Of a stretch of 54,678 nucleotides of DNA, positions 7,011 to 12,509 are shown in pieces. The notes below the pieces were generated by a model. That model had not been told where the DNA came from, ran no database searches, and was given only the letters and a program-made list of their open reading frames with translations. Numbering within the stretch: the stretch's first letter is position 1; each line of letters starts with the position of its first letter. This stretch comes from an uncultured Flammeovirgaceae bacterium (GTDB taxonomy: Bacteria; Bacteroidota; Bacteroidia; Cytophagales; Cyclobacteriaceae), in contig CAJXAT010000004.1 in NCBI GenBank assembly GCA_913050055.1, positions 1 to 54,678 on the forward strand, written 5' to 3'. Both the position numbers and the translations under genes were made by a program.

Positions 7011-7790
7011 ATGCAAAAGCTAACCATAGATCTTGATCAAAATAAAAAAATATTCTTCGCAAGTGATTTCCATCTGGGTGCACCCAATAAAGAACAAAGT
7101 CGATCGCGAGAGAAGAAAATAATCCGCTGGCTAGACGCTGTCGAAAAAGATGCTGCTGCCATATTATTAGTAGGTGATCTTTTTGATTTTTGGTTTGAAT
7201 ATGATCATGTTGTCCCCAAAGGATTCGTTCGGTTTTTGAATAAATTAGCAGCATTCAGTGATAAGGGAATTCCTGTTTATATCTTTCATGGCAATCATGA
7301 CATGTGGATGTTTGATTATTTAGAAACTGAAATTGGTGCTACTGTTTTTTCAGGTCCTATTGAGCTAATAGTAAATGATAAGTTTCTTTTTGTAGGACAC
7401 GGAGATGGACTAGGTCCAGGCGACTATACTTTCAAGGTCCTACGTAAAGTTTTCAGCAATAAGATAGCCCAATGGCTCTTTAAGTGGATTCATCCTGATA
7501 TTGGTGTTGGGCTTGCGAACAAATGGTCTTCTAGAAGTCGGATCAACAATAAGATAGAAAGTCAAGAAATCGATAAAGAAAAAGAATGGCTATTTTTATA
7601 CTCACAAAAATTAGAGTCTGATTGGCATTTTGACTTCTATGTCTTTGGACATCGACACCTACCCTTAGCATTGGAAATTAATAAAACATCTACTTATATT
7701 AATCTGGGAGAATGGCTAAATTTTAACTCATTTGGGGTATTTGATGGTAAAAATTTTCTAATTGATTATTTTGAATCTGATGCCAATTGA
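7011..7790 (+). CDS. lpxH: UDP-2,3-diacylglucosamine diphosphatase (LpxH family)
   Basis: Cleaves UDP-2,3-diacylglucosamine to lipid X and UMP in lipid A synthesis, at the inner face of the membrane. The calcineurin-like metal motifs are all present in order: ASDFHLG (D, H), VGDLFDFWFEY (D), FHGNHDMW (N, H), VGHGDG (H) and FGHRHLPL (H, H). At 259 residues it matches the family. ATG 7011 is the only Met upstream of the DFH motif, so it is taken as the start although it sits directly on the U-tract of the ftsH terminator with no room for a leader. A TTG or ATT further in cannot be excluded. Confidence 0.88.
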   Translation: MQKLTIDLDQNKKIFFASDFHLGAPNKEQSRSREKKIIRWLDAVEKDAAAILLVGDLFDFWFEYDHVVPKGFVRFLNKLAAFSDKGIPVYIFHGNHDMWMFDYLETEIGATVFSGPIELIVNDKFLFVGHGDGLGPGDYTFKVLRKVFSNKIAQWLFKWIHPDIGVGLANKWSSRSRINNKIESQEIDKEKEWLFLYSQKLESDWHFDFYVFGHRHLPLALEINKTSTYINLGEWLNFNSFGVFDGKNFLIDYFESDAN

Positions 7791-7856: not shown

Positions 7857-8930
7857 ATGAATTTTGTTTTCATCGTACAAGGGGAAGTTAGAGGACACAT
7901 GACTCAGGCCATTGCACGAAGTAAAATGCTTCGCAAAAATGATCATACGTTATCAAAAATTATCGTTGGCACAAGTCCGGCCCGAAGCATCCCTGAATAT
8001 TTTATTCGTAAAATAGGTGCCCCCGTTATTCAACTTGAAAGCCCTAATTTTATTAAGGATAAGAAACAGAAATCTATCAATCTTTCTCTGACGCTTTTTC
8101 AAACCTTATGGAAGAATAATACCTATCGAAAAAATATAAAAATTTTATCTCACATTATTGCTGATCTAAATCCTGATATTATTATCAATTTTTACGACTT
8201 TTTAGTGGGGATTTATAATTTTTGGTATCGTCTCAATTCAAAGTTTATTTGCATCGCCCATCAGTATTTAATAAGTCATCCTCAGTTTACCTCTCCCAAA
8301 GGAAAAATCATGGATCGAATGACTCTTCAATTGGCCAATTATATTACTCGACTCAATGCTGATAAAGTACTGGCACTATCCTTCCATTATTTTAAAGAAA
8401 GTATGACAAAAAATATTATTGTTAACCCTCCCTTGTTAAGAGACGAAGTACTTGAGCTAAATATCAAAACAGGAGATTATTTACTGATCTATATAGTTAA
8501 TGCAGGATATGGAGAGGAAATTGAATCCTCCCATCGAAAAAATCCTAATATTCCTCTTATTTGTTTTTGGGACAATGATAAAAAACCAAGTAAATATGTA
8601 ATCTGTGAAAATTTAATTTTTCATCAACTCAATTATCAATTATTTTTAGAAAAAATGGCGGCTTGCAAAGGTTTTGTTACAACGGCCGGTTTTGAATCTG
8701 TTTGTGAAGCCACATATTTAGGCAAGGCCACCTTAATGATTCCTGTCAATGGCCATTATGAGCAGGCATGTAATGCGATCGATGCTGCTAAAGCTGACTC
8801 GGGTATAACAAGATCAAGTTTTGATTTAACCCATTTGATCGATTACTTTCCACAACACAAAAACATAAAAAACCAATTTCAACCATGGATGGCCAAGGGT
8901 GGAAATATATTTATTCAACATTTGACGTAG
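7857..8930 (+). CDS. GT-B glycosyltransferase, MurG/GT28-like
   Basis: A 357-residue cytoplasmic protein with two Rossmann-like halves. The N-terminus has GEVRGHMTQA, equivalent to the GxGH acceptor-side loop of MurG and diacylglycerol glucosyltransferases. The C-terminus has the donor-site pattern TTAGFESVCEA, then PVNGHYEQACNA, which resembles the MurG GG-S-E/PxxxxxDQ region. No signal peptide or clear TM is seen. The stop codon TAG is immediately followed by the ATG of the next gene, so the two are translationally linked. It is 66 nt after lpxH, and a role in glycolipid or LPS assembly is inferred from that. The donor and acceptor are unknown. Confidence 0.72.
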   Translation: MNFVFIVQGEVRGHMTQAIARSKMLRKNDHTLSKIIVGTSPARSIPEYFIRKIGAPVIQLESPNFIKDKKQKSINLSLTLFQTLWKNNTYRKNIKILSHIIADLNPDIIINFYDFLVGIYNFWYRLNSKFICIAHQYLISHPQFTSPKGKIMDRMTLQLANYITRLNADKVLALSFHYFKESMTKNIIVNPPLLRDEVLELNIKTGDYLLIYIVNAGYGEEIESSHRKNPNIPLICFWDNDKKPSKYVICENLIFHQLNYQLFLEKMAACKGFVTTAGFESVCEATYLGKATLMIPVNGHYEQACNAIDAAKADSGITRSSFDLTHLIDYFPQHKNIKNQFQPWMAKGGNIFIQHLT

Positions 8931-9974
8931 ATGGCTTTAATATCCAAAAAGAAAATTGCTTATCCTATAAGCGCTCACTTAAGATCCTACCTAAAAAAAT
9001 ATCGAAAGGACATATACCTACCTATCACCTATCAAAACTTGTTAAGATACAATAACAGTATCCCACTCTATGATTCAAAAGAGGTTGATACGCTTTGGGA
9101 AACCGTATTTTTCCCACAGGATGAAATGCAAGAAATACATTTTGCACTCAAAACAATTTATGCAATCATGCAATCAGGAGGAGATGTTAGCGTCATGAAG
9201 CATCTGTTTGTGGATCGTATCGATTTATGCATCTACGGCAATACAAAACCCTTCAGAATTAGAATGGTGAATAAAATTAATGATAATTTTGACTATTTTT
9301 ATATTAAACATGCTGATGCATCAAGGGTATATGGTTTGGAATTAGAAGACTTACTGGCTCCTAACAGAATGAGATTCCTCATTAATGCAGAGACCTTAAT
9401 AGAGGAGCATGTCGTGGGTATTCCTGGGGAGCAGTTTATCAGAACACGCCTCGAAGACCTCGATCTCAATAAAATCAGATTAACCAAAGAGTTTGTAAAG
9501 TTTAATGAGCGCTGTTTTGTAAGACTCTTAGGTGATATGCATTCGAGTAATTTCGTGATCGACATAACTCCTGATTTCGAGGAAATAAGCTACCGACTAA
9601 GGGCCATCGATTTCGATCAACAATCCTATGAGGGAAGGAAATCCATTTATTTACCCAAATATTTTAAAGAAAATAATCCCATTATTAATCTAGGCTTTGG
9701 ACTGATGACTCCAGAAACTGTTCAACAATACCAAAGAGAAGAAAGATCTTTAATGGCCAATAGAGTCAAATCCTCTCAAGGCCAAATCAATGAGCTAATT
9801 GCAACAATGAAAATGGATCCCATTGCCCCTATAGAAAATGTCAAATCATTGGGCAAAGAGCTCGCTGCCTTTTATGAGGATAGGGATTTTTTAAAATGCT
9901 CAAGTATGGGAAGTCTTATAGAGAGAAGTTTGCTCATGCTATTTATAAAACCTGACCTTTACAAAGAGCGCTAA
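8931..9974 (+). CDS. Uncharacterised protein with kinase-like (APH/Kdo-kinase-like) motifs
   Basis: I do not recognise this 347-residue family. What can be seen fits a protein-kinase-like fold: a beta-strand with YIKHAD (Lys126, candidate ATP lysine), an acidic hinge-like LIEEHVVGIPG (156-166), a catalytic-loop-like LLGDMHSSNFVID (199-211, with Asp202 and Asn207), and IDFDQQ (226-231, Asp227/Asp229, candidate metal-binding DFG equivalent). The IDFD form is closer to Kdo kinases and small-molecule kinases than to Ser/Thr kinases. It has no signal peptide. Its ATG touches the stop of the preceding glycosyltransferase, so it probably phosphorylates a sugar, glycolipid or related small molecule in the same pathway. 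The convergent GH20 gene ends 3 nt beyond its stop. Confidence 0.6.
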   Translation: MALISKKKIAYPISAHLRSYLKKYRKDIYLPITYQNLLRYNNSIPLYDSKEVDTLWETVFFPQDEMQEIHFALKTIYAIMQSGGDVSVMKHLFVDRIDLCIYGNTKPFRIRMVNKINDNFDYFYIKHADASRVYGLELEDLLAPNRMRFLINAETLIEEHVVGIPGEQFIRTRLEDLDLNKIRLTKEFVKFNERCFVRLLGDMHSSNFVIDITPDFEEISYRLRAIDFDQQSYEGRKSIYLPKYFKENNPIINLGFGLMTPETVQQYQREERSLMANRVKSSQGQINELIATMKMDPIAPIENVKSLGKELAAFYEDRDFLKCSSMGSLIERSLLMLFIKPDLYKER

Positions 9975-9977
9975 TTT

Positions 9978-12509
9978 TTAATTTATTAAACCCATACTTA
10001 AACTTGAGCCACTGGCCTTATCAAAGGCTTTGATCAAAATAGCTCCATCAACCTTTATAGGTTGGGTATACAAAATAGAAGACACATTCGGTTCGCTACC
10101 ATCAAGGGTGTAACGAACATCCATTCCATAAAGATGATTTATTTTGAGTAAGCCCTCCTCTTTAATTCCACCTGGTGGAGGAATGCGGTATTGGTATCCT
10201 TCATTGAAATAGTTAAGCCTTGGTAATTCCTTCGAAGCCAATTTATAAACGAATCTCTGCCAGGCTCTCGTCTCTTGATTTTCCCTATTCATGGGATCTT
10301 CGACCGTAGCCCATTGAGGATGAGCTGCCCATGCGCGCTCGGATAATCCAATGAGTCGAGGCAAATAATAATACTCTAACATCTCATCAGAACCATTGAG
10401 CGTCTCGCTCCATAAATGTCCTTGAATACCAGAAATATTAGCCAGCCCTTCCTTAGTTAGCCTGACGGACTCTTTAAAATCAACAGCCGGATTAAAAAAT
10501 TTTCCCAATGATGAGCGCTTCGACGACCAGTACAAATTTTCTGGAATGAACTCCCATACTTTTCGGGTATCCACAAAACCTCCCCAATATGAGCCCTGCT
10601 CTCTAGGATCTTTAGTGTAGGCCATATCAAAATAAAGATTGGAAACATTGCACAAAACGATGGGAAAACCTGCATTAGCCAAACGATAACCCAAATCAAT
10701 ATTATTGGACAAATTATTCCAAACATACGAGGTGACATTTTCCCCTATCAGGTTAAGATTAGGAGACCACGAGCCATCGCTATTGATATTCATAGATACT
10801 TCTTCCCACCCTGCCATCACCAATCCTCGATCAGAAAGAATTTTATTAATGCGTCCGACAAAATAGCTTTGTAACGACTCAGCATCTTTATAATGATCAT
10901 TGATTGCTAAAAACTCCAGGCAATCAGGTGACTTCTCCCAAACGCCTCTGGGGACCTCATCACCACCTGTATGTAATGTTTTCAAAGGCACTTCTGCTCG
11001 TTGATATAGCTCTATAACTTCATCAACAACCGTTTCATAAAAATGATATACCGCTTCATTGCAAACACAAACAACATTATCATCATAAAACTGGGCCGAT
11101 GAATATTCTGAATCATCTGCATCATCTGACAAATAGTATTCAAGTGCACCTTGCTCATCTCCAAGCGCGATCAATTTATGATATCTCGCATCCATAGCTT
11201 TAATGGCTGCACGCGCGTGTCCTGGCATATTTAATTCTGGAATCACCTCAATATGGCGCTCATCAGCATAGCGTATGATCTGAATGTATTGTTCTTGCGT
11301 ATAATATCCTGTACCCCTTACACCTTCCGAAGCCCCCGAACCATAAGCAGGTTGGAGTACTTCTTTTTCATCCATTGTATGCGCCCTACGGGCCCCAATC
11401 CCTGTTAACTCTGGTAGTATTTTGGATTCTAAGCGCCAACCCTCATCATCAGTTAAATGTAAATGCAATTTATTTAATTTATAAAAAGCCATGAGATCTA
11501 TGAGTTTGATTAAGGACTCATATGATTGGAAGTTTCGGGCAAGATCCAAGTGCATGCCCCTATAGGCATACCTTGGTTGATCTTTGATCTGTCCCAAAGG
11601 AAGGATTATTTTTGTGAGATTATTTTGAAATACTTCCACAGGCATCAGCCCAATCAAACTTTGAATACCATAAAAGACTCCACTCGCATCAGCCCCTTGA
11701 ATCAAAATTTCATCTTTATCAAGGCTGAGCCGATAGGATGATGCTGCTTTTAATCCTTTATTTAGTTTCAAAATAATCCTTCGCTCTGCACCCTGCTTCA
11801 GACTTTTTCCAAAAATTACCTTCAATTGCTCATCTAAAAAAATACTCTCTGAGCCCAATAAGGGACTTGCCTCAATGCTCCAACTTTGATCTAACAATAC
11901 AAATCCATCAAAATATACTTCATCCAACGGTGTTGGGACTAGTTTAGACAGGTCCTCTCGATCGTCATATTTTATTTTTTTATTTTGGTGATAAATCGAC
12001 TCCGCAGTGGGAATTTCATAATAATCAGCAGCGCCTTTGGTAATCATATCAAGATTTATAAACGGTCTGAAAGTGTAAATTGGCTCATAAATCGCGCCAT
12101 CTTCCATCAAAAAATAGAGCCCTGCTGGTCGATCACTTTGCTTAAGAATAAAATCTTTGCCCTCAAAACTCATTGCTATTTTTTCACCAGGATCAAGTAA
12201 AAACCCACTGTCTGGCCTGATAACAAAAAGATCACCATTTACATGATTAAAAGTGACTTGCCCTTTATAAGAGTCTTGTACTAACCCTCTTGGCGTCATG
12301 CTGTAATACAAAGACCAATTTTTATCATCCAAGGCAACGGTTCCCAAATTGGAGAGATAAAATGTACTGGCAAACTTGTTTTGGCCGTTTATCTGATTGC
12401 CATTCAATTCCCATTCAATACTTATTTTTAATTTCTTGGGCTCCTGAACACAGGAGAAAAGGAGCGATACTCCCATAAAAAAATGACAAAAACGACTAGC
12501 ATAAAGCAT
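9978..12509 (-). CDS. Lipoprotein beta-N-acetylhexosaminidase (GH20)
   Basis: Removes terminal beta-linked GlcNAc or GalNAc from chitooligosaccharides or glycans at the cell surface or periplasm by substrate-assisted catalysis. The 843 residues contain a lipoprotein signal with lipobox LLFSC (Cys20), an N-terminal carbohydrate-binding CHB_HEX-like domain, a GH20b alpha/beta domain to about 310, and the TIM barrel with RGMHLDLARNF, LHLHLTDDEGW and the catalytic pair D517-E518 in HTGGDEVPRG. A chitobiase-type C-terminal Ig-like domain follows (YTLDGSEP...LIKAF). Each domain is complete and in the usual order. It stands alone, without SusC/D neighbours. Confidence 0.92.
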   Translation of the reverse strand: MLYASRFCHFFMGVSLLFSCVQEPKKLKISIEWELNGNQINGQNKFASTFYLSNLGTVALDDKNWSLYYSMTPRGLVQDSYKGQVTFNHVNGDLFVIRPDSGFLLDPGEKIAMSFEGKDFILKQSDRPAGLYFLMEDGAIYEPIYTFRPFINLDMITKGAADYYEIPTAESIYHQNKKIKYDDREDLSKLVPTPLDEVYFDGFVLLDQSWSIEASPLLGSESIFLDEQLKVIFGKSLKQGAERRIILKLNKGLKAASSYRLSLDKDEILIQGADASGVFYGIQSLIGLMPVEVFQNNLTKIILPLGQIKDQPRYAYRGMHLDLARNFQSYESLIKLIDLMAFYKLNKLHLHLTDDEGWRLESKILPELTGIGARRAHTMDEKEVLQPAYGSGASEGVRGTGYYTQEQYIQIIRYADERHIEVIPELNMPGHARAAIKAMDARYHKLIALGDEQGALEYYLSDDADDSEYSSAQFYDDNVVCVCNEAVYHFYETVVDEVIELYQRAEVPLKTLHTGGDEVPRGVWEKSPDCLEFLAINDHYKDAESLQSYFVGRINKILSDRGLVMAGWEEVSMNINSDGSWSPNLNLIGENVTSYVWNNLSNNIDLGYRLANAGFPIVLCNVSNLYFDMAYTKDPREQGSYWGGFVDTRKVWEFIPENLYWSSKRSSLGKFFNPAVDFKESVRLTKEGLANISGIQGHLWSETLNGSDEMLEYYYLPRLIGLSERAWAAHPQWATVEDPMNRENQETRAWQRFVYKLASKELPRLNYFNEGYQYRIPPPGGIKEEGLLKINHLYGMDVRYTLDGSEPNVSSILYTQPIKVDGAILIKAFDKASGSSLSMGLIN

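Follow-up and report, generated by a model that had tools for sequence, protein, structure and literature searches.

A kinase-fold protein family of Bacteroidota with invariant putative active-site residues and a predicted fold resembling PI3K and PIK-related kinases

The described proteins closest in predicted fold to the one analysed here are the PI3/PI4-kinase and PIK-related domains, among them VPS34, p110gamma, PI4KB, mTOR, ATR, SMG1 and Tel1. HipA, HipT and CtkA are bacterial Ser/Thr kinases of the broader kinase-like fold, which the LPS kinases WaaP and KdkA also have in common. Within the window, by which we mean the whole 54,678-nucleotide stretch of DNA that was analysed, the open reading frame at 8931..9974 on the + strand starts with ATG and encodes 347 residues whose predicted fold is like that of the PI3K-type domains over approximately residues 14-347. 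It departs from them in being a stand-alone bacterial protein of about 347 residues with its own conserved N-terminus, in having Met for the Arg of DRH and DFD for DFG, and in showing no significant profile homology to them. From HipA, HipT and CtkA the family differs in lacking any significant profile match, HipA_C finding nothing in the window genome; from WaaP and KdkA it differs in the lack of a profile match and in having neighbours that are not LPS-specific across lineages. The features of the locus are as follows.

7011..7790, + strand: LpxH-like calcineurin-type phosphoesterase, ending 66 bp before the glycosyltransferase gene
7857..8930, + strand: GT-B glycosyltransferase (Glyco_trans_1_3), abutting the kinase-fold gene with a 0-bp gap
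8931..9974, + strand: kinase-fold protein, 347 aa, final gene of the LpxH-like / glycosyltransferase / kinase run
8931..8960, + strand: N-terminal residues 1-10 (MALISKKKIA), of low model confidence (block mean 60), yet conserved
9306..9308, + strand: K126 (in YIKHAD), which closes strand 120-127 and is the putative lysine for the ATP phosphates
9396..9428, + strand: putative hinge, residues 156-166 (LIEEHVVGIPG), with E158, H160, G163 and P165 invariant
9525..9554, + strand: putative catalytic loop, residues 199-208 (LLGDMHSSNF), with D202, M203 and N207 invariant
9606..9617, + strand: putative metal site, residues 226-229 (IDFD), invariant, D227 taking the position of the Asp in DFG
9618..9677, + strand: activation-loop-like stretch, residues 230-249, with Q230, P242 and N248 invariant and Y240 in 163/164 sequences
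9978..12509, - strand: GH20 beta-hexosaminidase, convergent, 3 bp past the kinase-fold gene, closing the run

A sequence-only reading of this locus had described an ATG touching the glycosyltransferase stop and a 347-residue protein with kinase-like motifs. Indeed, the TAG at 8928-8930 that ends the reading frame 7857..8930 directly precedes the ATG at 8931, and YIKHAD, LIEEHVVGIPG, LLGDMHSSNF and IDFD all lie where they had been placed. It had also put lpxH directly upstream, which needs correcting: the LpxH-like gene precedes the glycosyltransferase gene, and the latter stands between it and the kinase-fold gene. The LpxH-like protein reaches neither of the curated LpxH cut-offs (86.3 versus 134 and 76 versus 190.35 bits), and the GT-B protein is MJ1255/VC2487-like, yet under the cut-off of that NCBIfam family.

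No named family was thought to fit this set of motifs, and our searches agree, since the window protein matched nothing beyond chance in Pfam, NCBIfam, PHROG or PADLOC. Similarly, no Pfam family was matched beyond chance by 60 members of alignment A1. PF00454 (PI3_PI4_kinase) matched neither the window protein nor any of these 60 members in the Pfam search, and its profile had no hit at E <= 10 in the window genome. The HipA_C and HipA N-terminal domain profiles were equally without a Pfam match to the window protein or the 60 members, and HipA_C found genes in 11/39 relatives; profiles for the WaaP/KdkA LPS kinases gave no match in Pfam or NCBIfam. Direct hhalign comparisons were non-significant both with PI3K (E 0.13 and 0.097) and with HipA (E 0.043 over 30 columns), and no credible hit came from sequence searches of the PDB, the best E values being 0.52 and 0.046. 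Judged by the profile tests that were run, the kinase-fold protein belongs to none of PF00454, HipA and WaaP. Among open-access papers, no title or abstract was found that names this kinase-fold family.

The motifs nevertheless show the conservation expected by the earlier reading, which had made conservation among homologues a check on its kinase assignment. In an alignment of 186 rows, which include repeats of the same genomes and represent 164 distinct sequences (132 at 90% identity), K126, E158, D202, N207, D227 and D229 are invariant in all 164 distinct sequences and all 186 rows. Also without variation in the distinct sequences are D129, R132, H160, M203 and F228, and position 204 is occupied by His (117 sequences), Arg (46) or Asn (1). 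The helix that comes after the K126 strand (residues 130-142) follows the invariant D129 and contains the invariant R132 along with the nearly invariant E137 and E139, and the N-terminus has K7 in 159/164 and K8 in 164/164 distinct sequences. Further invariant polar residues of the N-lobe are R96, D98, C100, N104, R109 and N114. Purifying selection on the gene is strong: in seven usable within-genus pairs, an eighth (with G007) being saturated, its dN/dS was 0.025-0.081 as compared to 0.136-0.417 for the glycosyltransferase gene, and the kinase-fold gene was under stronger constraint than the adjoining glycosyltransferase gene in 7/7 comparable pairs. Residue invariance and these low dN/dS values together argue that the quoted motifs are not there by chance. 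One same-genus orthologue (L009, G007:C115:11496-12521) contains an internal TGA and is either a pseudogene or an assembly error.

Structure prediction, another check that had been proposed, yielded a bilobal kinase fold for two homologues. AF2 modelled the window protein with a pLDDT of 86.0 and its Rubricoccaceae homologue L083 with one of 90.5, from overlapping alignments, and the two models agree nearly element by element. Residues 230-247 fall below pLDDT 50 in the window model, and the corresponding blocks reach 78-92 in the Rubricoccaceae model. The elements run from the lysine strand through K-x-x-D-x-x-R into a helix, the hinge with E158, helix 181-197, GDMHSSN, a hairpin and IDFD. 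Compared by eye, the likeness to PI3K consists of a lysine strand with K-x-x-D-x-x-R and a helix after it, a G-D-x-H-x-x-N loop and an IDF-x metal site, and this motif order, matched by eye rather than from a printed structural alignment, fits PI3K (VPS34, p110gamma). The counterpart of DRHxxN/DFG in the family is D202-M203-[H/R/N]-x-x-N207 and D227-F228-D229, in which the catalytic Asp, the Asn and the metal Asp are retained. The non-significant hhalign alignment sets GDMHSSN and IDFD on the GDRHxxN and IDFG of PI3K. By its predicted fold and motifs, the protein is a kinase.

Structural comparisons place that fold nearer to one branch, with some reserve. For both models, all 50 of the 50 VIA-align matches listed are PI3K, PI4K or PIK-related kinases, and, both lists being filled by PI3K-type matches, the absence of WaaP, APH, HipA and FAM20 from them excludes nothing. 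VPS34 is the best match to both the window model (Z 14.5, 4.4 A, 277 aligned residues) and the L083 model (Z 12.2, 4.5 A, 269 aligned residues). In Foldseek, VPS34 heads the list for the window model (E 5.4e-6) and is second, behind an ordinary Ser/Thr kinase, for the L083 model. Both Foldseek lists intersperse VPS34 with ordinary protein kinases, and the TM-scores of the VPS34 rows are 0.34-0.41 over the model; therefore, assignment to the kinase fold is firmer than assignment to the PI3K branch. CtkA appears in the Foldseek list for the window model at rank 21, and WaaP, absent from the VIA-align rows, in that for the L083 model at rank 48 with E 1.7e-3 and TM 0.26.

These matches bear on what the enzyme might phosphorylate. 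The presence of VPS34, PI4KB and p110 among the listed folds, and a non-significant hhalign alignment to PI3K that extends through the loop after IDFD, could point to a lipid kinase with phosphatidylinositol or an inositol sphingolipid as its substrate. Inositol lipids are produced by some gut Bacteroidetes (PMC9246714). However, the inositol-phosphate synthase PF07994 occurs in 12/68 genomes that carry the kinase-fold gene and in 27/179 that lack it. This lack of association, which concerns the inositol-phosphate synthase route only, speaks against an inositol lipid substrate without excluding it, and we consider a lipid kinase a slim prospect.

The main rival to our preferred reading is that the substrate is a small soluble metabolite or cofactor, as for members of the kinase-like fold of the APH or ABC1/UbiB type. 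G-D-x-H-x-x-N with IDFD is reminiscent of APH-like kinases, and the invariant R96, D98, C100, N104, R109 and N114 could line a pocket. On the other hand, no small-molecule kinase profile matched the 60 A1 members, and APH, ABC1-UbiB and FAM20 are not among the 24 families listed for them, in a Pfam search at E <= 5 whose HMMER filters drop most matches above 0.1. The listed structural matches are also of PI3K type, though APH is not excluded by them. We regard a small-molecule substrate as rather unlikely.

Homologues were found in 40/59 relatives and in 68/247 genomes of the phylum, counting the window genome in each case, and were absent from the other 179/247. The window's class, including its own family and order, accounts for most of these, with the gene in 49/61 genomes and in 26/26 of family f25, as compared to 19/186 genomes of other classes. 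There is one match per genome with the sole exception of G148, whose second copy (L187, G148:C3:105230-106207) is 40% identical to the window protein and whose other copy is 46% identical. In G017 the match is a 50-residue piece only. Judged by eye, a midpoint-rooted tree of 80 named loci broadly follows taxonomy and sets the Rubricoccaceae pair apart. Several rows in it group with other families or have long branches, and some of these may be mislabelled bins. From the scan of genome contigs, the best 80 of 582 relatives were kept. Collections of plasmids and phages contained no match to the protein, and the two patterns used on viral contigs found no relative there, so a mobile or viral origin was rejected. 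A 632-aa reading frame in L198 was dismissed as a clue from gene fusion, as it looks by eye like a start-site artefact in GC-rich DNA. The family is slowly evolving, apparently vertically inherited and mostly single-copy in many Bacteroidota.

To place the gene in its genomic context we used 140 loci, the nearest 80 named and 60 chosen by hand and hence non-random, in which the gene was called in 135 (134 distinct). Most neighbours were clustered rather than annotated, clusters took their names from representatives, and only reading frames of at least 70 aa were called. On the same strand, the gene directly upstream in the 134 distinct loci is DUF3817 in 20, a glycosyltransferase of the window type in 10, an MFS transporter in 8, RodA in 7 and a BshA-type GT4 in 5; in 2 more the window-type glycosyltransferase lies one gene further upstream. 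No general neighbour family emerged among the 134, which gives no pointer to a HipB-type antitoxin, although one might sit among the unannotated clusters or the shorter reading frames.

The sequence-only reading had suggested that the protein adds phosphate to a sugar or glycolipid during LPS or envelope assembly, presumably one built with the help of the neighbouring glycosyltransferase, and had proposed co-occurrence of the pair across Bacteroidota as a check. The LpxH-like, glycosyltransferase and kinase-fold genes do form a run with gaps of 66 and 0 bp whose layout is retained in genus relatives, and other clades place the gene after RodA/PBP2, MurF or BshA, which lends the proposal a loose sugar or cell-wall flavour. 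The pair does not co-occur generally, however. A glycosyltransferase orthologue (E <= 1e-80) is present in 24/59 relatives, of which 19 have the kinase-fold gene (14 adjacent, 5 not), as compared to 21 of the 35 relatives without the orthologue; thus 14 of the 40 kinase-bearing relatives have the two genes side by side. Together with its position directly upstream in only 10/134 distinct loci, these counts led us to reject a glycosyltransferase partnership as a general rule. Because the glycosyltransferase may be present or absent, and is adjacent in some lineages, the link is a trait of lineages and says little about function. The glycosyltransferase also evolves faster than the kinase-fold gene, and no LPS-kinase profile matches. 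The general tie to LPS or the envelope is therefore unsupported, the LPS/glycolipid reading of the gene is weak, and a sugar or glycolipid substrate seems quite improbable.

Several other arrangements recur. For example, the kinase-fold gene follows PBP2- or RodA-type genes in L054, L062, L064, L065, L071, L073, L074, L076, L080, L084, L086, L087 and L093, with an MFS transporter in between in L074, L076, L080, L084, L086, L087 and L093, and it follows a MurF-type gene in L011 and L015. In genomes of the Algoriphagus type (e.g. L036, L037, L039, L040, L044-L047, L052 and L148) it comes after genes for a thioesterase-type protein, an unannotated ~190-aa protein and a DUF3817 membrane protein; the one ~190-aa protein tested had no Pfam match. 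A GT4 gene of a single cluster lies directly before or overlaps the kinase-fold gene in L083, L095, L106, L108-L110, L117-L119 and L124, of which L083 is from Rubricoccaceae and most of the others are from other classes. The cluster's representative, from L108, is the bacillithiol-synthesis enzyme BshA (576.6 bits versus a cut-off of 273.7). A bacillithiol link was uninformative, BshC being present in 242/247 genomes, as was co-occurrence with COX1, present in 235/247.

Taken together, we give about an even chance to the reading that this protein is an active, ATP/Mg-dependent phosphotransferase with a fold like that of PI3K and PIK-related kinases, widespread in Bacteroidota, probably cytosolic and most likely acting on a protein. 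The invariance of the putative phosphotransfer residues is the ground on which we take the protein to be active. In the proposed mechanism, K126 would position the ATP phosphates, the E158-H160 stretch would serve as the hinge, D202 would be the catalytic-loop aspartate, and N207 and D227, perhaps with D229, would hold the metal. The conserved loop 230-249 and the basic N-terminus may help in substrate recognition. The neighbouring genes do not reveal the substrate. We favour a protein over an inositol lipid or LPS sugar, a guess made by analogy with PIKK and HipA kinases.

In the libraries searched, no such PI3K/PIKK-type kinase family is named for the phylum. It is a tentative and rather doubtful extension of the above that the family is an ancient, separate bacterial branch of the PI3K/PIKK fold, a housekeeping protein kinase of Bacteroidota that would predate the split between the window's class and Rhodothermota and regulate a core process. 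A gene found in every genome of family f25 and in 49/61 of the window's class has an intact predicted active site, yet has no counterpart in Pfam or NCBIfam. If it is a protein kinase of the PI3K fold, it would be a new signalling or modifying enzyme in a major phylum, and would give studies of how the PI3K/PIKK fold arose a bacterial point of comparison.
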